A stretch of DNA of 64,000 nucleotides from Longibacter salinarum (GTDB lineage: Bacteria; Bacteroidota; Rhodothermia; Rhodothermales; Salinibacteraceae), in the NCBI RefSeq assembly GCF_002554795.1, contig NZ_PDEQ01000010.1, positions 62,001 through 126,000 on the forward strand, written 5' to 3'. The notes under the pieces were generated by a model. That model saw only the letters and a program-made list of their open reading frames with translations, had not been told where the DNA came from and did not search any database. Position 1 is the stretch's first letter. Each line of letters starts with the position of its first letter. Both the position numbers and the translations under genes were made by a program. Below are positions 8,521 to 63,283 of this stretch, piece by piece.

Positions 8521-9966
8521 TCACCGTTCTCCTCGGATGCGCTCGTAGGTTTTCTCCAGGTCGACATACGGCTCGGGGTAGTCGGCGCCAATGATGCAGC
8601 CGTACTCTTTCTGTTCCTCGCGGCTCATCGTGTGCGGCTCGTGGATGTATTGATCCGGCACGTCGGATAGCTCGGGCAGCCAGTGGCGGACGTAGTCGCC
8701 GTCGGAGTCGTAGCGCTGCGCCTGTTTGACGATGTTGAAGTAGCGGGAGCGCGGGTCATTGCCGACGCGGGAGTTGTATGCCCAGTTGCCCCAGTTGCTG
8801 GCGACATCGTAGTCGACCAATCGTGACTCGAAGTACGCCGCGCCCATGCGCCAGTCGAGCTTCAGGCTCTGGGAAAGCATACTGGCGACGTTCTGCCGGC
8901 CGCGGTTCGACATGAAGCCCGTCGTATTGAGCTCACGCATGTTGGCGTCAATGAACGGGATGCCCGTTGTCGCCGTCGCCCACTTCTCGAACGACTCGTC
9001 GTGGTAGGTCCAGTCGATGTCGTTGTCGTTGAGTCCGCCGGGGTGGAACAGCTTCGGCCCGGCCTTCCAGGTGACGTACGTGAAGAAGTCGCGCCAGATG
9101 AGCTCGAAGACCATCCAGTAGGTCGACTTATTGCTGACGCGCCGGTCCTCGTAGCGCTGGACCTCCTCGTAGATCTGTCGCGGCGTAATGCAGCCGTGCG
9201 CGAGCCACGGGCTGAACTTCGACGAGTAGCCTTCGCCCAGCAGGCCGTTGCGCGTCGCCTTGTATTCCTTCAGGTGATCGTCGCGCCAGATGTATTGCTG
9301 AATGCGGTCGAGGCCGCGCGTCTCGCCGCCCTTCCAGGGGAGCACGCCCCGCTCGTCGGCCGTCGCGTTGCCCTCGACCCCGAGATCCTCATTTGTCGGT
9401 ATGGTGCCGGGATCCAGGTCCTCCGGCAGGGGGGCGAGCGTCTCCGGCGGATCGATTGTCGGGCGCACCTCCGACTGCTTCTGCAGCTTCTTCCGGAACG
9501 GCGTGAACACGTCCGGCACGTCGTCCGCGCTCTCGAACGGCGCATCGTCCAGGTGGTAGAGCGTCTTCCCCCAGAAGTAGGCCGGCTGTGCGTTGGTGTT
9601 GCGGAGGGCCTCCTCAACCGCGTTCTCGACCTCCTTTTCCTCCGTGCCCACCTCCTCGAACATGTACACGTCCGTCGCACTCGTCTCGCGGACCAGCTCG
9701 GGCAGCACGTCCTCCGGTTTCGCATGGCGCACCACGAGGTCCGCACCCAGACCCTTGAGTGACTCCCGCAGGTCGGCAACGCTCTCCCGGAGAAAACGAG
9801 CGCGGATCGCCCCCGTCTTCGGCAGATCGAACATCGTCGTCGCGAAGTGTCGCGGGTCGAAGCAGTAGACCGGGATCACCACATCGTGGTGCTCCGCTGC
9901 ATACGACAGCGCCTCATGATCGCGAATGCGAAGGTCGTTCCGGTGCCAGACGATGGCCGTGGACAT
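8521..9966 (-). CDS. Cryptochrome DASH / photolyase-family flavoprotein
   Basis: This 481-aa FAD-dependent blue-light protein belongs to the CRY-DASH group, which repairs cyclobutane pyrimidine dimers mainly in single-stranded DNA. The N-terminal photolyase alpha/beta domain starts TAIVWHRNDLRIRDHEAL. The FAD-binding domain contains GEGYSSKFSPWLAHGCI, the DASH-like FELIWRDFFTYVTWKAG, MRELNTTGFMSNRGRQN and the WGNWAYNSRVGNDPR segment. Length and motifs are complete. A DUF2256 gene lies upstream on the same strand, a known pairing with cryptochromes, but a 198-bp inverted-repeat element separates them. Confidence 0.92.
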   Translation of the reverse strand: MSTAIVWHRNDLRIRDHEALSYAAEHHDVVIPVYCFDPRHFATTMFDLPKTGAIRARFLRESVADLRESLKGLGADLVVRHAKPEDVLPELVRETSATDVYMFEEVGTEEKEVENAVEEALRNTNAQPAYFWGKTLYHLDDAPFESADDVPDVFTPFRKKLQKQSEVRPTIDPPETLAPLPEDLDPGTIPTNEDLGVEGNATADERGVLPWKGGETRGLDRIQQYIWRDDHLKEYKATRNGLLGEGYSSKFSPWLAHGCITPRQIYEEVQRYEDRRVSNKSTYWMVFELIWRDFFTYVTWKAGPKLFHPGGLNDNDIDWTYHDESFEKWATATTGIPFIDANMRELNTTGFMSNRGRQNVASMLSQSLKLDWRMGAAYFESRLVDYDVASNWGNWAYNSRVGNDPRSRYFNIVKQAQRYDSDGDYVRHWLPELSDVPDQYIHEPHTMSREEQKEYGCIIGADYPEPYVDLEKTYERIRGER

Positions 9967-47579: not shown

Positions 47580-49620
47580 GATGACCCCACGCGAGTGGGG
47601 ATAGACCCTTCTGGGTCTTGGCCCGCAAGCACGTAAAACGGATGACCCCACGCGAGTGGGGATAGACCGCAGATCCTGCGCTCGCATATGCGCCTCACCG
47701 TGATGACCCCACGCGAGTGGGGATAGACCCTTGTAGGGAGCAGCCATGTTATTGCGTGTTAGGATGACCCCACGCGAGTGGGGATAGACCGCGACTGGAA
47801 GAGCTTGGCATTAGCAATACGTCGATGACCCCACGCGAGTGGGGATAGACCTCATATCAGTCAGTCGGTCATTGGAGTGCGTGCGATGACCCCACGCGAG
47901 TGGGGATAGACCCGCGAGAGTGGCCGGTTCTAGATGCCCTCCTGTGATGACCCCACGCGAGTGGGGATAGACCCTCTGCGATGGACTCATCCGTGATGCT
48001 TCGGCCGATGACCCCACGCGAGTGGGGATAGACCCCATTGCCAGCTGTAGCGAGGGTGCGGGCGCCTGATGACCCCACGCGAGTGGGGATAGACCCAGCC
48101 ACCAGGCCAAACAGGCAGCCGAGAAGCTGATGACCCCACGCGAGTGGGGATAGACCCTCTTGATTGATTGACTGGAAAATGCCCAGCCGGATGACCCCAC
48201 GCGAGTGGGGATAGACCCCAGACGGTGCATAGCGCGTGCTTATTTACAGCGATGACCCCACGCGAGTGGGGATAGACCCTCATTGTGATCCGTGGTTGTT
48301 AGGATGCGCGTGATGACCCCACGCGAGTGGGGATAGACCCCGGATGCTCGGTGCTGAGGCAGCTACGGCGTTGATGACCCCACGCGAGTGGGGATAGACC
48401 TGATGCTGCAGCCACGCGCGCGAGTCTGGACTTGATGACCCCACGCGAGTGGGGATAGACCTCTCGGGTTCGGGGAGAAGGCCAGCGCGAATCAGATGAC
48501 CCCACGCGAGTGGGGATAGACCCACGTCGGTCGGCTGCCATCCATCTTCCTCCGCGATGACCCCACGCGAGTGGGGATAGACCCCCGCTCGTCATGGCCG
48601 TCATTGGCGGCGTGATGATGACCCCACGCGAGTGGGGATAGACCGCCTTTCAGATGCTGGAAGCGCAAGGGCTCACGGATGACCCCACGCGAGTGGGGAT
48701 AGACCCCTGGGCACGCAGGATCTGCGCGCGCTCAAGGTGATGACCCCACGCGAGTGGGGATAGACCCCAGACGTCGCCTCGCCTCTGGGGCCTTCCGGTG
48801 ATGACCCCACGCGAGTGGGGATAGACCGATCCCCGCGTCCCAGGTCGGCTTTAGCCTGTCGATGACCCCACGCGAGTGGGGATAGACCCCTGGCGGACAT
48901 ACTCCCCAGAGTCCCGCCCGAGATGACCCCACGCGAGTGGGGATAGACCCCGAGGAGTTCGGGGATGAGGTGCAGCTAGAGTGATGACCCCACGCGAGTG
49001 GGGATAGACCCCATATCCCCGCCGAAGTTTCGCTCGGCAACGAGATGACCCCACGCGAGTGGGGATAGACCCGCCGATGGCGAGAAGGTGGGCGACTCCA
49101 TTCGGATGACCCCACGCGAGTGGGGATAGACCCGTGAGGGACATGCTCCGCGCGGACCCGAAGGCGATGACCCCACGCGAGTGGGGATAGACCCTTGGTG
49201 CACCCAACGGCACGAAGAACCAATCCGATGACCCCACGCGAGTGGGGATAGACCCGGACTCGGCAAGTCGGGGCTTCTGACGATCCTGATGACCCCACGC
49301 GAGTGGGGATAGACCCGTCTGTGCGCCCGTCTGCATCGGTGGCGTACGGATGACCCCACGCGAGTGGGGATAGACCCGATAATAGCACACCTGAGACGAT
49401 GAGCCAAAAGATGACCCCACGCGAGTGGGGATAGACCTGATATCGTGCATCCTTCTTCTGCTTCTCGCTTGATGACCCCACGCGAGTGGGGATAGACCTC
49501 GTCGCAGTGCCTGCACTGTACGCACCATCAAGATGACCCCACGCGAGTGGGGATAGACCTGGCGCGTGAGAGACGGGGTGCGCGCTCGATGCGATGACCC
49601 CACGCGAGTGGGGATAGACC
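47580..49620 (+). CRISPR. CRISPR array 1, type I-E, 34 repeats and 33 spacers
   Basis: The 28-bp repeat begins GATGACCCCAC, has the hairpin CCCCAC-GCGA-GTGGGG, and ends GGGGATAGACC. The period is exactly 61 bp throughout, so spacers are 33 bp (or 32 bp if the mostly conserved C after the repeat is counted as repeat). No repeat between first and last differs from the consensus as far as I checked, which indicates a well-kept array. The 3' part GGGGATAGACC parallels E. coli GGGGATAAACC, so transcription is on the + strand with the leader on the left. Confidence 0.98.
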
Positions 49621-49823
49621 CAATTTGAGGTATGGGGAATGGGGGAAAGGGGGATGAGGAGGAGCCGAGGTCTTGGTCAATGTTTGTGTCGGATGAGGGG
49701 GGACGTTGTCCCGTCTTTAGCGTGACTGAGGGCGCCATTTTGCTCGAGTCTTTTCTCGGGTCGGCATAGTCCGTTTTCTTTCTATGAACCACTTCGCATT
49801 TCGCCCTTTGCAGTTCGACTTCG
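49621..49823. repeat. Array 1 trailer, first copy of a tandem duplication
   Basis: The 203 bp after the last repeat are repeated, with some changes, at 49,852-50,054 (TTTGAGGTATGGGGAATGGG, GGTCAATGTTTGTGTCGGATG, CTATGAACCACTTCGC). The two copies are separated by a degenerate CRISPR repeat. Confidence 0.85.
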
Positions 49824-49851
49824 CGCAGACCCCACGCGAGTGGGGATAGAC
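49824..49851 (+). CRISPR. Detached degenerate CRISPR repeat in the trailer
   Basis: Twenty-six of 28 bases match the array 1 repeat; it begins GCAGACCCC instead of GATGACCCC. The hairpin and the GATAGACC end are intact. It lies 231 bp after the last true repeat, too far to be a normal array unit. Confidence 0.9.
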
Positions 49852-50302
49852 CCGATTTGAGGTATGGGGAATGGGGGAAAGGGGGATGAGGAGGAGCTGA
49901 GGTCCTGGTCAATGTTTGTGTCGGATGAGGTGAGATGTTGTCCCGTTTTTGTCGTGATCGGGGCGTCCTTCTGCTGGAAACCTTTTCGGGTCGGCGTGCA
50001 CCGCTTCATTCCTATGAACCACTTCGCGTTTCGCATTTAGCATTTCGCCCTTGGCTCACTTCGCCCTCGATTCACGCGAATCCCCAATCCTCAATCCACA
50101 TCCATAAACCATCCCGGTTGCGTGCCGAGCCGCTACGATCTGGCTTAATCATCTCCCACCGCAGAGTGGATCGATTGATCGACGCACGATCCAACGTCAA
50201 CGTTCAACCGCGAAACGTTTACATGCACTAAACCAATGGTTCAAACACTGACTGCACTGTAGTGTATGTGCTGGGTGTTTATATTAAGTAGCTTATATTT
50301 GC
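49852..50302. repeat. Array 1 trailer, second copy, and spacer
   Basis: This is the second copy of the trailer duplication (to about 50,054), followed by TTCGCATTTAGCATTTCGCCC and AATCCCCAATCCTCAATCC words (50,020-50,110) and AT-rich sequence. TATATTTG at 50,294-50,301 fits the Bacteroidota -7 box TAnnTTTG but nearly touches the next ATG. Confidence 0.6.
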
Positions 50303-52497: not shown

Positions 52498-53067
52498 ATG
52501 CGAGGAACCGAACGATCATTGTGCCGACCGTCCACGCCGCTGGTCGTGGCTCCCCTCCGGTTTCTCGACATCGAAACCTCGGGGCTGCGCGCCGACCGCG
52601 GGGCACGGATTACGGAGATTGCGTTGCTGTCCGATCGTGACGTGAAGCTCGACTGGTGCTACGACGAATGTGGCGAGATCGGATCGGAGGCTCACGATGT
52701 AGCGGTGCACTCACAACTCGCTCATCTCGTTCGGGGCATGTCGGAAACCGTTATCGTCGCGCACAACGCTCCGTTCGACCTTAAATTTATCGCGTACGAG
52801 GCGCGGAGACTTGGCGTACGGGGTCTGGACGTTCGGGTGATCGACACGCTCGCACTGTCGCGACGGCTTCACCCGGACCTCCGGAACCATCGGCTGGAGA
52901 CGCTGGCGGAGGCGTTCGGGCTTTCCGCTCCCGGTCCATTCCATACCGCGATGACGGATGCTAATGTCACGCGCTCCCTCTTTCAGCATTTACAGACGGA
53001 CGGAGCGCTCGACACGCTCGGTGACGCAGGCATTCGGCGCCTCCGGTGGTCGGAGCCGATGGAATAG
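52498..53067 (+). CDS. DnaQ-like DEDDh 3'-5' exonuclease
   Basis: This 189-aa nuclease has a complete DEDDh active site: Asp24 and Glu26 in FLDIETSG, Asp94 in VAHNAPFDLKF, and His149 with Asp154 in FHTAMTDAN. Related proteins are the proofreading subunit epsilon, RNase T and the exonuclease domains fused to Cas2 in some type I-E systems, where they trim prespacers. It lies 196 bases before cas3 on the same strand, and the cas2 here has no fused DnaQ domain. A link to adaptation is possible but unproven. Confidence 0.87.
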   Translation: MRGTERSLCRPSTPLVVAPLRFLDIETSGLRADRGARITEIALLSDRDVKLDWCYDECGEIGSEAHDVAVHSQLAHLVRGMSETVIVAHNAPFDLKFIAYEARRLGVRGLDVRVIDTLALSRRLHPDLRNHRLETLAEAFGLSAPGPFHTAMTDANVTRSLFQHLQTDGALDTLGDAGIRRLRWSEPME

Positions 53068-53263: not shown

Positions 53264-56014
53264 ATGATGGAGGGACGTCCTGATACGACGCAGTTCTGGG
53301 CGAAGCTGGAATACGGAGACGATGGTAGACGTGCGTCTGATATCACGGCGTGGCACCCGCTTCTCGCGCACTCGGCCGACGTGGCGGCTGCTCTCGAGGT
53401 GCTCCTGCGTGATACGATTGTCGGGCGAAGGCTTGCTGGCCTCGGTGGGCTCGTTGAACTTGGACCGATCCGTATCGCTCGTCTCTGCGCCCTCGCCACG
53501 ATTCACGACGCGGGCAAAGCGAACCATGGTTTTCAGGACCGGGCGTTCAAGGGAGGGGCAAGGCGAAAGGGACATCAGAAGCCGATCATTCAAGTCGGAG
53601 ACGATGGTGGTCTTTCGGATCGGATCTGGGTACCGCTGGAGATTGGAAGCATGATGCGGTGGTTCCGCGAGAGGATTGACTTGAAGTCATTTCTCCATAC
53701 CACGTGGTCTCATCACGGGAGGCCTGTGAAGGCAAAGGGAGGCATCTCATATGCGATCTGGGATGACAACAACCGTCGATCGCCGGCTGAGGAGATCGCG
53801 CGCTTGGGTAAAGCTGCTCTGCACTGGTTCCCGGATGCCTTCCAAAGCGGAGATCTGCTCCCCGGCGCGACTGGTCCGTTTGAGCATGCGTTCAATGGGG
53901 CGCTCACGCTGGCCGACTGGATCGGCTCGAGCTTTCCGTTCTGGAATCCGGACGAAGACGGCGATCCCAACGACCTGGACGCGCTCATCACGCGGGCTCG
54001 GCGTCTGGCCGAAGATCGATTGCAGAAGCGAGCCCTCATCGCGGCGCCGTTTCAGTCCGCCATCGCCGACCGTGTGCCATTCGGCGGGGTGCTGGACGAT
54101 CCGGGATGGACGCCTCGCCCCGTTCAGTCGGTGACTGCTGATCGACCGATATTCGAGGAGGGAGCGCTGACGATCCTGGAGTCGGATACCGGCTCGGGAA
54201 AAACGGAGGCGGCGCTGGAGCGATTCTTTCACTTGTACGAGAAGGGGGCCGTTGACGGGCTGTACTTTGCGCTGCCGACGCGAACGGCCGCACGGCAGAT
54301 CTACAACCGCGTGGAGCGAGTCGTAAAGCGCGTATTCGAGGTCCACGACGCCGATCCGCCGCCCGTGATTCAAGCTGTGCCGGGATACATCGAAGCCGAC
54401 GGCGTGAAGGGCGTGCCGATCGACCGGTTCGATGTGCAATGGCACGACGATATGGAGGAAGACGTCGCCCGCGAGCGACGGTGGGCCGCCGAGCAGCCCA
54501 AGCAGTATCTCGCTGGATCGGTCGTGATCGGAACGGTGGACCAGGCACTACTGTCGGCGCTACAGACGCGCTACGCCCATGCTCGCGGCACGGCACTTCT
54601 CCGGCATTTCCTTGTGGTGGATGAGGTGCATGCGTCGGACATGTACATGACGCAGATCCTAAATGCCGTCCTGGACCATCACCTCTCCGCCGGGGGACAC
54701 GCCCTCTTGATGTCCGCCACCCTTGGTACGGCAGCGCGCATAGCGTTTTCAGAACAGAAGACCGGCCGTCAGCACGTACCGGATGTAGAGGAGGCCATGA
54801 GGGCCGGCTACCCGCTCGTAACGCACGTCTCAGCCGAGCGACATACGCCGGATCCGCAGGCGACTGATCCGTCTGGATACCGGAAGGCAGTCGAAATGCA
54901 GGTTGCTCCCGTTGCCGGGGATCCGGACGCCATTGCCCAACGCGCGATCGAAGCGGCCCGCGATGGAGCTCGAGTCCTCATCATTCGGAACCGGGTGGAA
55001 GACTGCATTGATGTGCAGAAGGCGGTCGAGGCGCACCTTGCACCCGATGAGCGGGATCTTCTTCTACAGGTTCACGGCACGCCCGCACCGCATCATTCTC
55101 GTTTCGCGAAGGCAGATCGGTCGGCGCTGGATGATGCGATCGAGACGGCCTTCGGAAAGGACGAACCGATTCGAGGCGTCATCGCGGTGGCAACACAGAC
55201 CGTCCAGATGTCTCTCGACCTGTCGGCATCGCTGATGATTACGGATCTATGCCCCGTAGATGTGCTTTTGCAGCGGATCGGGCGGCTCCACCGGCATGGT
55301 CGCGATGAGCATCCTGCTGGCTACGATGTGCCGCGATGCGTCGTGCTGACGCCGGAATCACGTGAGATGGCGGAATGGATATGGGAGGGACGCGGGGACC
55401 TGCAGGATATGGCGATCAAGGGGCCGCACGGCCTCGGCACGGTCTATCAGGATCTGCGCGTGATCGAAGCGACGTGGCGATTGGTCGAGCCGGGAGATGG
55501 AGACGAGATGGTGACCTGGACGATTCCCGACGATAACCGAAAGCTCGTTGAGCGCGGCACAAACCCGCACGTCCTCGACCGGATCATGGACGAGAACATG
55601 GGGCGGGAAGACGCTACCGCGTGGCAGAAGCACGCCGATTATCTCTTCGGTCAAAACAGCGCCGCAAAGCTCAGCGCAAAGAACGTTTGCCTCCCGTACG
55701 ACCGGCCCTTCATGAACGTCACTTTCCCGGACGACGATATCAATGCCGCAAAGACGCGCCTGGGTCTCGACGACGTCACAGTGGAGCTTCCCGAAGCGGT
55801 TCCGAGTCCGTTTCAGCCGGACGGACCCGCCGTCGTCCGCCGATTCTCGATCCCGAGATACTGGCTGCGCGACCGCGATGATGATACGCCGCTACCGGAT
55901 GACTTTGATGTCACAGTCGAACAGGACTGCGATCGGACCGGTGGTAATATTATCTTAACATTATTGGGTAAATCGTTTCTATACAGTCGGTTAGGGTTTA
56001 GGAAGCGCGGTTAG
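53264..56014 (+). CDS. cas3: Cas3 nuclease-helicase, type I-E
   Basis: This 916-aa effector nuclease is recruited by Cascade to unwind and degrade target DNA. The N-terminal HD nuclease has His36 (HPLLAHSADV), His81-Asp82 (IHDAGK), His150-His151 (WSHHG) and Asp218 (LADWIG). The superfamily 2 helicase follows with Walker A DTGSGKT (308-314), DEVH (453-456), MSATLG, TQTVQMSLDLSA and motif VI QRIGRLHRHGR. A C-terminal domain completes it. All key residues are present, so it should be active. The ATG pair at 53,264/53,267 starts the gene. It is the first gene of the cas block. Confidence 0.96.
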   Translation: MMEGRPDTTQFWAKLEYGDDGRRASDITAWHPLLAHSADVAAALEVLLRDTIVGRRLAGLGGLVELGPIRIARLCALATIHDAGKANHGFQDRAFKGGARRKGHQKPIIQVGDDGGLSDRIWVPLEIGSMMRWFRERIDLKSFLHTTWSHHGRPVKAKGGISYAIWDDNNRRSPAEEIARLGKAALHWFPDAFQSGDLLPGATGPFEHAFNGALTLADWIGSSFPFWNPDEDGDPNDLDALITRARRLAEDRLQKRALIAAPFQSAIADRVPFGGVLDDPGWTPRPVQSVTADRPIFEEGALTILESDTGSGKTEAALERFFHLYEKGAVDGLYFALPTRTAARQIYNRVERVVKRVFEVHDADPPPVIQAVPGYIEADGVKGVPIDRFDVQWHDDMEEDVARERRWAAEQPKQYLAGSVVIGTVDQALLSALQTRYAHARGTALLRHFLVVDEVHASDMYMTQILNAVLDHHLSAGGHALLMSATLGTAARIAFSEQKTGRQHVPDVEEAMRAGYPLVTHVSAERHTPDPQATDPSGYRKAVEMQVAPVAGDPDAIAQRAIEAARDGARVLIIRNRVEDCIDVQKAVEAHLAPDERDLLLQVHGTPAPHHSRFAKADRSALDDAIETAFGKDEPIRGVIAVATQTVQMSLDLSASLMITDLCPVDVLLQRIGRLHRHGRDEHPAGYDVPRCVVLTPESREMAEWIWEGRGDLQDMAIKGPHGLGTVYQDLRVIEATWRLVEPGDGDEMVTWTIPDDNRKLVERGTNPHVLDRIMDENMGREDATAWQKHADYLFGQNSAAKLSAKNVCLPYDRPFMNVTFPDDDINAAKTRLGLDDVTVELPEAVPSPFQPDGPAVVRRFSIPRYWLRDRDDDTPLPDDFDVTVEQDCDRTGGNIILTLLGKSFLYSRLGFRKRG

Positions 56015-56233
56015 TCACGAGTAACGTCTGGTATGTTCTTGATTTTCGTTCTCCTGGGACCTTCGTTGTATTTGCGACGCTGATTGATCAGCGATAGCCC
56101 GATACCAGACGTGACAAGTACTGGTACCGATACAGTGGCTCCGATTTCTCGGAGGAAAAGAAAAGCCCCGCCACTGAAGATGGCGGAGCTCGAAAGCGCC
56201 GAGGACGAGTCGGCGCTGAAGCTGTAATCAGCG
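56015..56233 (-). ncRNA. Hairpin-rich segment between cas3 and the 158-aa gene; candidate structured RNA
   Basis: Four structures lie within 200 bp. An 11-bp inverted repeat ACGTCTGGTAT / ATACCAGACGT (56,024-56,034 and 56,102-56,112) encloses a hairpin CGCTGA-TTGA-TCAGCG (56,079-56,094). A perfect 8-bp stem AGCGCCGA / TCGGCGCT lies at 56,195-56,217, and a terminator hairpin at 56,152-56,190. The terminator works only on the minus strand, and no convincing minus-strand protein gene precedes it. A small minus-strand RNA that ends here is the simplest reading; its start is not known. Confidence 0.4.
56152..56190 (-). terminator. Minus-strand Rho-independent terminator inside the cas operon
   Basis: On the minus strand AGCTCCGCCA / TGGCGGGGCT (one mismatch, 7-base loop TCTTCAG) is followed by TTTTCTTTTCC. 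It faces against the cas genes. Confidence 0.75.
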
Positions 56234-56710
56234 ATGGAGACCGCTACAATCACAGCAAAACCAAGTTACGGCATGCGTCGAAAAAGTCAAATTCAGGATG
56301 TACTCGGGCGAATGGTTCTGGCAGGACTGACGCCGATACCGGTTATAGGCGCAGACATACGCCATTTCCGTTTGGGACACGAGTGTCGTTTTGCACTGCT
56401 TTCCAGCAACAGATCCGGAGACTTGTGGGAGGTGAGCCTGTCGGAACGAGTTGTTTGCGGGTTGAAGTCGATGCTGCGACAAAAGCGATCCCTTTTCGAT
56501 CGGTTTAGCATTGGACTGGCCTGCGGGAGTGAACTCTGCTGGCTTCACGAAGATGAGTGGACCAAACTCATTGATTTGGACAAGCCTGCAGCCCAGAAGC
56601 TCTTTGTTCGCCGGCCGGAAAACTGCTCATTTAGAGTCTGGAGCGAGTCGAGTTTCCTCTCGAAAACAGTACCGCTCAAGCGTCTTTCTACCCTCGCAAA
56701 AGCCGCGTAG
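56234..56710 (+). CDS. Unknown 158-aa protein encoded between cas3 and cas8e
   Basis: The ORF ends four bases before the cas8e ATG and lies in the cas reading direction. The protein is basic, with a compact alpha/beta-like pattern (IRHFRLGHECRFALLSSN, GDLWEVSLSERVVCGLKSML, LFDRFSIGLACGSELCWL, DEWTKLIDLDKPAAQKLFV) and four cysteines. No signal peptide, membrane segment or known motif is visible. Codon use is less G+C-rich at third positions than in the cas genes, suggesting separate origin. I do not recognise the family. It could be a regulator, an accessory nuclease or an anti-MGE factor; no function is assigned. A later start (Met at residue 14) is possible. Confidence 0.6.
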   Translation: METATITAKPSYGMRRKSQIQDVLGRMVLAGLTPIPVIGADIRHFRLGHECRFALLSSNRSGDLWEVSLSERVVCGLKSMLRQKRSLFDRFSIGLACGSELCWLHEDEWTKLIDLDKPAAQKLFVRRPENCSFRVWSESSFLSKTVPLKRLSTLAKAA

Positions 56711-56714
56711 AATC

Positions 56715-58268
56715 ATGGAAGCAGAAGAGAATAAATTTTCCCTTCTCGACGACGGACTGTTTCGCGTTCGCGGCGATGACGGTGTGCGGGAGTGCTCGTT
56801 GCCGGAGGTCCTGGCGGCGCTGCAGGCGGATGCCGTGGCGAGCTTCGACGGTCTGCAGGCGCATCAGGAGCAGGCGTGGTATGCATTCCTCGTCCAGCTT
56901 GCGGCGATGATCCGCGCGCGCACCGACCGCACCGGCGACCTCGATACGTCCGACTGGCGCAGCGGCTGTCTCGACCTGGCCGAGGGCAACGAAAATGCCT
57001 GGCACCTGGTCGTTTCTGACGTTACCGAGCCGGCGTTCATGCAGTCGCCGGTCCCGGAAGGATCGCTCGACGAGGCAAAGTACAAGAGCGACATTCCATC
57101 GCCGTCGTCGCTGGACGTGCTGGTCACGTCCAAGAACCACGACGTGAAGCAAACTCCGATTCGCTACCCGCGGACGGAGCACTGGATCTACGCGTTGATC
57201 ACGCTGCAGACCATGGAGGGCTTCCTCGGTCGTGGCAATTACGGGATTGCGCGTATGAACGGAGGGTTCGGGAATCGTCCGCTTGTGGGGCTGGCCCCTG
57301 GGCTATCGTTCGGGGAGCGGTTTCGGCGCGATGTGCGTGTGCTTGCAGAGACCCACGACGACACGGTGCTCTGGGATGCGGACGGCCGATTCAAACTACT
57401 CTGGACCGAGCCGTGGGACGGCGCGAAGGCAAGCGCGATCTCGCTGGACAACTGTGACCCGTACGTGATCGAGATCTGCCGGCGCATCCGGTTCACGATG
57501 GATGACGGCTCGCTGACCTGCTGGCGGGCGAACACAAAGGGACAGCGTCTCAACGTGCCGTCGTCGCTCAGCGGACAAACGGAAGACCCGTGGACGCCGG
57601 TTGATAAGGGCGAAGACAAGGCGCTGACGCTTGGTGGCGGCGGGTTTACGTACCGCAAGCTCACCGATATTCTCAGCGGAAATTATGAGCGGCCGGTCAC
57701 CCTTGAGCGGCAGTCTAATGATGCCGGGGCCATGTTCGTAACGGCCCGGAGTCTCGTGCGTGGTCAGGGGAAAACGGAAGGTCTGCACCACCGAGATATT
57801 TTTGTACCGGGAGAAGCGAGCGGTTTCTTTTCTCAAGGAAGCGACCTTTGGCAGAAGCTCGCCGAGATCTCCGAGCAACGTGTGGAGATGGTGCAGGAGG
57901 TTGAGTCTCGCGTACTGCGCCCGGCTGTGGCGGCGCTCCTCACAGGCGGCCGGCGGGACGAGCAACCCGATTGGGATGTCGTTCAGCCGTGGATCGATGC
58001 CTTCGACACTCGGGTCAACGAGGTCTTTTTCGAAAAGCTGTGGGCCGCCGTCAATCTCGACAAACGTCAAGCCCAGAACGCCTGGGAGCATTTTCTGAAA
58101 ACAGAGGCCTGCAGTCAGTTCGAGGCGGCGACCGAAAACGTGCCCATTCCGGACCTGCGCAAATGGCGCGCCCTCAGCGCCGCCCGATCCATTTTCGAGA
58201 GCCGAATCCGCGACACGCTGGAGATGGCGTACGACGACGAATCTTCTTCAACCGACACGGACGAATAG
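56715..58268 (+). CDS. cas8e: Cas8e (CasA/Cse1), Cascade large subunit
   Basis: This 517-aa subunit recognises the PAM and recruits Cas3. The N-terminal part has FSLLDDGLFRVRGDDG and VRECSLPEVLAALQAD. The central Cse1 region includes DVLVTSKNHDVKQTPIRYPRTEHWIYALITLQTMEG and the glycine-rich GRGNYGIARMNGGFGNRPLVGL, which resembles the L1/PAM-recognition region. The C-terminal four-helix bundle follows (about 380-517). The ATG at 56,715 (MEAEENKFSLL) is the natural start; the longer frame from 56,511 overlaps the 158-aa gene. cas11 starts nine bases after its stop. Confidence 0.93.
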   Translation: MEAEENKFSLLDDGLFRVRGDDGVRECSLPEVLAALQADAVASFDGLQAHQEQAWYAFLVQLAAMIRARTDRTGDLDTSDWRSGCLDLAEGNENAWHLVVSDVTEPAFMQSPVPEGSLDEAKYKSDIPSPSSLDVLVTSKNHDVKQTPIRYPRTEHWIYALITLQTMEGFLGRGNYGIARMNGGFGNRPLVGLAPGLSFGERFRRDVRVLAETHDDTVLWDADGRFKLLWTEPWDGAKASAISLDNCDPYVIEICRRIRFTMDDGSLTCWRANTKGQRLNVPSSLSGQTEDPWTPVDKGEDKALTLGGGGFTYRKLTDILSGNYERPVTLERQSNDAGAMFVTARSLVRGQGKTEGLHHRDIFVPGEASGFFSQGSDLWQKLAEISEQRVEMVQEVESRVLRPAVAALLTGGRRDEQPDWDVVQPWIDAFDTRVNEVFFEKLWAAVNLDKRQAQNAWEHFLKTEACSQFEAATENVPIPDLRKWRALSAARSIFESRIRDTLEMAYDDESSSTDTDE

Positions 58269-62875: not shown

Positions 62876-63283
62876 ATGACCATTGCCGTCACCCGAAATA
62901 CGCCTGGCCGATTTCGCGGCTTTCTGTGTTCGTGCATGCTCGAAATTGCGCCCGGCGTGTTTGCCGCACCGCGTATGAAAACGGCGGTGCGTGAGCGAGT
63001 GTGGAACGTCATGGTCGAATGGTCTGAACTCGTCCCGGACGATGGAGGTGTGGTCATGTTCTGGCGTGATGCCGAGGCTCCGTCCGGAATGGTCGTGCGT
63101 CTGATCGGGTATCCGAAGAAAGAGTTGCTGGAGCACGAAGGGGTGTGGCTCACGCTCACCAATCTGACGGCTGCGCACGACATCGAGGAGCTTCGAACGG
63201 TGTCCGACACCGACGAGGCGCCCGTCAATGACACCGACCCGATGCTCCCGCACCACCTTCAGAACGACGATTCAAGCGACTGA
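62876..63283 (+). CDS. cas2e: Cas2e
   Basis: This 135-aa ferredoxin-fold protein forms the Cas1-Cas2 integration complex. The type I-E form is clear from TIAVTRNTPGRFRGFLCSCMLEIAPGVFAAP, the VWNVMVEW helix and the MFWRDAEAPSGMVVRLIGYP strand pair. The C-terminal 45 residues are longer than in E. coli and acidic, without a nuclease domain. The stop codon TGA is the first three bases of the conserved palindrome of the array 2 leader. The ATG at 62,876 (MTIAVTRN) is the family start. Confidence 0.94.
   Translation: MTIAVTRNTPGRFRGFLCSCMLEIAPGVFAAPRMKTAVRERVWNVMVEWSELVPDDGGVVMFWRDAEAPSGMVVRLIGYPKKELLEHEGVWLTLTNLTAAHDIEELRTVSDTDEAPVNDTDPMLPHHLQNDDSSD

Follow-up and report, generated by a model that had tools for sequence, protein, structure and literature searches.

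The plus strand of the window, a 64,000-nucleotide stretch of Longibacter salinarum DNA, encodes a complete type I-E cas operon, which runs from the start of cas3 at 53264 to the end of cas2 at 63283, with arrays of clustered regularly interspaced short palindromic repeats (CRISPR) on both sides. The gene cas3 (53264–56014; Pfam Cas3_HD and Cas3-like_C_2) is followed by orf158 (56234–56710), which encodes an uncharacterised protein and putative Cascade-repressed effector, and then by cas8e (cse1; 56715–58268), the first gene of the Cascade block, identified by its position and by homology to cas8 of related loci. Pfam matches identify cse2, cas7, cas5, cas6e, cas1 and cas2 after it, in that order. 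The orf158 stop lies 4 bp from the cas8e start in the window and ~25–100 bp from it in other loci, on the same strand. We analysed the segment between cas3 and orf158, for which an initial annotation had listed an 11-bp inverted repeat with an enclosed 6-bp hairpin, a perfect 8-bp stem and a minus-strand terminator. All of these are present in the sequence. Judging from that sequence, the segment is also quite probably a creA/creR-type gene with a single spacer, degenerate repeats and its own DNA target, placed before orf158 and the Cascade genes.

A unit resembling a CRISPR RNA (crRNA) occupies 56073–56162 on the plus strand. It consists of a degenerate I-E repeat (psiR1, 56073–56101), a 32-nt spacer-like stretch delimited by the same hairpin spacing as in the arrays (psiS, 56102–56133, ATACCAGACGTGACAAGTACTGGTACCGATAC) and a second degenerate repeat (psiR2, 56134–56162). 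The psiR1 hairpin, CGCTGA-TTGA-TCAGCG at 56078–56093, has a 6-bp stem and a 4-nt loop and is followed directly by a predicted 5' handle, ATAGCCCG (56094–56101), close to the array handle ATAGACCC; the psiR2 stem (56139–56154) likewise has 6 bp and a 4-nt loop. From the end of one stem to the start of the next there are 45 nt, identical to the spacing in the arrays (8 for the handle, 32 for the spacer and 5), whose repeats are GATGACCCCACGCGAGTGGGGATAGACC and GGTGACCCCGTGCGAACGGGGATAGACC, each followed by C, and whose repeat unit is 61 nt. Because the hairpin spacing matches the arrays, we read 56073–56162 as a repeat-spacer-repeat in which both repeats are degenerate; the earlier statement that the segment holds no clear repeat-derived sequence is thus incorrect. 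Degenerate repeats with a Cas6 hairpin and an 8-nt handle are the form expected of CreA- or CreR-type RNAs. The combination of handle, hairpin and seed target occurs nowhere else outside the arrays in the window. An Rfam search of the window matched tRNA alone, with no curated RNA model for the guide unit.

The 11-bp inverted repeat, ACGTCTGGTAT at 56024–56034 and ATACCAGACGT at 56102–56112, encloses the psiR1 hairpin. Its second arm is the start of psiS. The minus strand of the first arm reads the same 11 bases, ATACCAGACGT (11/11 identical), preceded on that strand by AAC (56035–56037), so we interpret the repeat as a guide seed and its protospacer-like DNA target beside a protospacer-adjacent motif (PAM). 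A plain hairpin was considered and ruled out, as arm 2 starts exactly after the handle and arm 1 has a PAM, likewise in five other loci. In type I-E systems the last repeat base derives from the PAM, as established in E. coli. The final base of the array repeats is C in 32 of 43, T or G in the others and never A, and the PAMs at the six targets (AAC four times, AAT twice) agree with the array repeats. Spacer matches to phages, sought as independent PAM evidence, yielded none that was usable. Across the whole genome of this organism the seed with an AA-PAM occurs at two sites, here and inside a gene, the second being at about chance level. CreA and CreR RNAs are recognised by a match of seed positions 1–5 and 7–11 to nearby DNA with the system's PAM, and these positions were needed in experiments with CreA (PMC8501985); psiS has this match (11/11 with AAC). 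Overall, we consider it very probable that the unit is a guide of the crRNA type and that its self-target is real.

We searched for orf158 homologues by protein and profile in 27 genomes of the family, 245 of the class and 394 of the phylum, and read the cas3–cas8e gaps of ~20 I-E loci of the class; below, L0xx labels denote loci of related genomes and Gxxx labels denote genomes. Seven loci had orf158 and a readable gap, namely the window, L010, L012, L013, L014, L018 and L031. In a relaxed scan the guide unit was present in all seven and in none of 12 complete gaps without orf158. Each of the seven has a handle within 1 of 7 positions of ATAGACC. Hairpin spacing is 45 nt, giving a 32-nt spacer, in five loci, and 33 nt, giving a 20-nt spacer, in L014 and L018. 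Cascade accepts guide length changes in 6-nt Cas7 steps; the 20-nt pseudo-spacers, at 9342 in L014 and 3218 in L018 (reverse orientation), are 12 nt below array length, or two such steps.

Six of the seven loci, all except L010, carry their own matching target upstream of the unit. Spacers and targets are entirely different between loci, and in every case the target matches the spacer of its own locus. Seed positions 1–11 are fully matched in the window and in L031, where the match extends to 15. Mismatches within this range fall at position 6 in L012, 6 and 11 in L013, 8 in L018, and 6, 9 and 10 in L014. Three of these four targets thus have a mismatch at position 6, a base that goes unread by Cascade. 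Of the ten counted positions, all are matched in the window, L012 and L031, nine in L013 and L018, and eight in L014. Under strict rules, a handle, a 6-bp hairpin and a seed target with AA-PAM were found together in five of the seven gaps and in 0 of 2800 shuffles of these gaps, compared with ~1% of shuffles for the handle with hairpin alone.

The repeat stems are conserved by compensatory change. A 6-bp stem with a 4-nt loop is found in psiR2 of all seven loci, and a 6-bp stem in psiR1 of six. Changes on both sides of a pair were seen at all six pairs of psiR1 and at four of six in psiR2. Counted together with two array repeats, 100% of stem cells were paired, a percentage biased upward by the excision of stem sequences around hairpins already found, which leaves the two-sided changes unaffected. 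None of 500 shuffles scored as well on paired cells and covariation, and pairing fell to 33–44% when the partner bases were shifted by one position. A lack of structural conservation in relatives sharing the cas operon had been set beforehand as refuting the initial annotation; conservation was found, with stems covarying among the loci. G-U pairs in the pseudo-repeat stems of L014 and L018 form on the plus strand only, which argues for a plus-strand guide.

The guide element is linked to orf158 and not to Cascade, as relatives with the same Cascade genes minus orf158 lack it. Within one genus it behaves as a cassette that G195 has and its congener G194 lacks; the gap between the shared flanks measures 755 v 114 bp. 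Every copy of the element that we found accompanies orf158, in that genus as a cassette, and for this reason orf158 is most likely the gene under guard and probably a toxic effector. Its toxicity is a guess, since some homologues lie away from CRISPR loci, with no such element seen. These homologues are found in L058/L059, L016, L056 and L057; in L059 a 104-aa gene lies directly 5' of the homologue, forming a two-gene unit. The protein matches PHROG 28860, a family without assigned function. Fold matches to a Holliday resolvase and tRNA splicing endonucleases had E > 0.1 and were not used. We tentatively propose that orf158 represents a new family of protein effectors repressed by Cascade, sharing the logic of CreP but not its sequence. 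With its crRNA-like guard it would form a cassette that inserts at the cas3–cas8e junction of type I-E systems, its guides sometimes two Cas7 units shorter; the full proposal is plausible, at slightly less than even odds in our judgement.

By analogy with CreA, an intact CRISPR complex probably switches off this stretch, neighbouring orf158 included. Plus-strand transcription of psiR1-psiS-psiR2 would start from a promoter just 5' of 56073 and may read through into orf158 and cas8e. From the hairpin geometry, Cas6e is predicted to cut behind both 6-bp hairpins, leaving a guide with the handle AUAGCCCG and the 32-nt spacer. Cascade loaded with this guide would bind 56024–56034 beside the AAC PAM via the matched 11-nt seed only, pairing that would be too short for Cas3 cutting, as in characterised CreA systems. 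So placed, it would sit upstream of or on the promoter for the guide, and possibly for orf158 and the Cascade genes. By blocking transcription it would hold orf158 off while Cascade works; loss of Cascade, its titration by crRNAs or its inhibition by an anti-CRISPR would turn orf158 on. Repression may extend from orf158 to the adjacent Cascade genes.

CreA/CreR elements are already known, one of them at the cas3–casA junction of a type I-E system. Characterised CreA is a Cas6-cut, Cascade-carried RNA whose repression is independent of Cas3 (PMC8501985, PMC9458426; type I-E, PMC12055562), and CreA of CreTA modules has been described in haloarchaeal I-B (PMC8501985, PMC9458426) and Acinetobacter I-F systems (PMC10097628). 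Our element resembles these in its two highly diverged pseudo-repeats round one spacer, its conserved 8-nt 5' handle, its partial match, in the seed, to DNA nearby on the promoter side with a PAM, and its location between cas genes. Unlike CreTA, it leaves ~40 bp between target and psiR1 in most loci, little room for a small RNA toxin gene; its linked gene encodes a 158-aa protein downstream of the guide, and two homologues have a 20-nt spacer. The Citrobacter rodentium CreTA (PMC12055562), likened here by description and not by sequence, is also type I-E, at the cas3–casA (cas8e) junction, with a psiS target and PAM. Its target lies beside a promoter element, and Cascade is required whereas Cas3 is not (PMC12055562). 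There, however, creA and a 96-bp toxin open reading frame (ORF) lie on opposite strands, whereas here the guide, orf158 and the Cascade genes all run in one direction. In CrePA, as a review presents the work of Shu et al. 2024 (PMC12737573), CreA controls a protein toxin, CreP. The proposed shared logic, on that account, is a crRNA-like RNA repressing a protein-coding gene that would act upon Cascade failure; the review describes CreP as KilA-N-type, whereas orf158 has no Pfam or PDB match.

The strongest alternative is autoregulation of the CreR type, in which the crRNA-like RNA holds down the Cascade operon, as feedback on crRNA supply or in response to anti-CRISPRs, and orf158 is a passenger or accessory subunit. 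As summarised in the same review (PMC12737573), CreR also combines a crRNA-like RNA with Cascade acting upstream of Cascade genes, and is widespread in type I systems and uncoupled from toxins. The short, same-strand spacing between orf158 and cas8e means that one promoter can drive both orf158 and Cascade. However, CreR is described as in general uncoupled from accessory or toxin genes, whereas our element is seen only with orf158 (7/7 v 0/12), and it is absent from 12 of 12 related I-E loci without orf158 despite the same Cascade genes. The junction also bears other toxin-antitoxin-like pairs in relatives. Because the element is tied to orf158 and the junction holds such pairs, we favour a guarded effector, as in CrePA, and regard CreR-type autoregulation as possible but unlikely.

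The initial annotation had placed a structured regulatory RNA on the minus strand, ending at ~56155–56163, and had cited CreA-type RNAs as a known example; on the minus-strand reading the plus strand would not be expressed. The minus-strand terminator that it identified is genuine. The hairpin lies directly behind psiR2 (56163–56191; 12 pairs, U-tract tail TTCTTTTCCT) and is present in 7/7 loci, with the minus-strand fold more stable in 7/7 and a minus-strand U tract in 5/7. The whole segment also folds better than shuffles, more so on the minus strand (z −4.3, 0/200) than on the plus (z −2.4, 5/200). The strand bias of the terminator comes mostly from G-U pairs where the plus strand has C-A, and terminator-like sites alone show no excess (three in 1.5 kb v 1.7 ± 1.5 in shuffles). 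Against a minus-strand regulator, pseudo-repeat geometry, handle, seed, PAM and stem G-U pairs all read on the plus strand, and an RNA stopping at the terminator would exclude the pseudo-repeats entirely. Thus a CreA-like element that probably regulates the operon stands, on the strand opposite to the one proposed, and a minus-strand regulator is very unlikely. Least probable of all is a decayed mini-CRISPR, a functionless leftover repeat-spacer-repeat: the repeats are degenerate, one homologue has lost its first hairpin and one has no target, but compensatory change keeps the stems and targets are re-established in each locus with a matching PAM, neither of which decay would lead one to expect.

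Several results weigh against the guide model and the role it gives to orf158. The psiR1 of L012 has no clean hairpin. L010 has the guide architecture and no target in its locus, nor was one found by exact pattern in its genome, G017, which is 83% complete. L014 is the weakest target, with seed mismatches beyond the tolerated position. The Fisher test of the seven loci against the 12 gives P = 2 × 10−5, a comparison that ignores shared ancestry. A TTGATT hexamer from 56039, a few bases past the PAM, is a possible −35 box, and TTG-type boxes lie at or adjoining the PAM in four loci; however, a sigma-70 promoter scan of 55500–57000 returned none, no convincing promoter was seen in the window, and a cross-locus comparison of promoter hexamers was weakly above shuffles. 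Sequence searches with orf158 in Pfam, PADLOC and PDB gave nothing firm and no recognised domain, KilA-N included, and its AlphaFold model, built from two sequences, is of low confidence (pLDDT, the predicted local distance difference test, 54). Homologues without CRISPR occur in G004, G178, G192, G301 and G312, and no guide element was seen there. The guide model also leaves the conserved minus-strand terminator unexplained; it may keep antisense transcription off the guide and target, or terminate a short antisense transcript that covers the orf158 leader.

These seven related type I-E examples add to the few cases of Cascade as a gene switch, and they point to the uncharacterised family of orf158 as the guarded gene. 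With natural guide lengths of 32 and 20 nt and self-targets matched at 8 to 10 seed positions, they offer ready material for testing the extent of pairing that Cascade requires for repression without cutting. If orf158 is indeed toxic, the cassette would be a Cascade-addiction or anti-anti-CRISPR device. Our literature search found no report for this bacterial class, of a two-repeat I-E guide before the orf158 family or of 20-nt natural guides, an earlier listing being possible in the primary CreR work or in a survey of CRISPR-derived regulatory RNAs. Relatives sought in phages, plasmids and viral contigs gave none.

In this class, the cas3–cas8e junction is a hotspot for gene pairs of the toxin-antitoxin type, with or without a crRNA-like element: ribbon-helix-helix (RHH) plus PIN in L013 (8316–9143), DUF4160 plus DUF2442 in L018 (3790–4306, minus strand), and further pairs in the L022 gap and at the start of L039. 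In L015, remnants of cas3, an RHH antitoxin and orf158 (8746–9478) precede a second complete cas3 and are apparently a decayed older copy of a cassette-bearing operon. A different hairpin (CGGACACGAAACGTCCG CCCTGG and variants) lies before cas8e in the gaps of L022, L019 and L026, which lack orf158. Between the terminator and orf158 in the window, the perfect 8-bp stem-loop (56195–56217) has arms AGCGCCGA at 56195–56202 and TCGGCGCT at 56210–56217; by eye, a hairpin of other sequence lies near its place in most homologues. There is a 15-codon ORF at 56180–56227. Just 5' of cas3, a gene for a DnaQ-like exonuclease (52498–53067; RNase_T) has homologues by cas3 in L010, L012–L015, L021, L022, L025, L026, L028–L032 and L037; most related loci carry the gene, which seems to be a stable accessory within this I-E branch. 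The first CRISPR array ends with two direct copies of 135 nt each (49591–49957), 92% alike and 232 nt apart.
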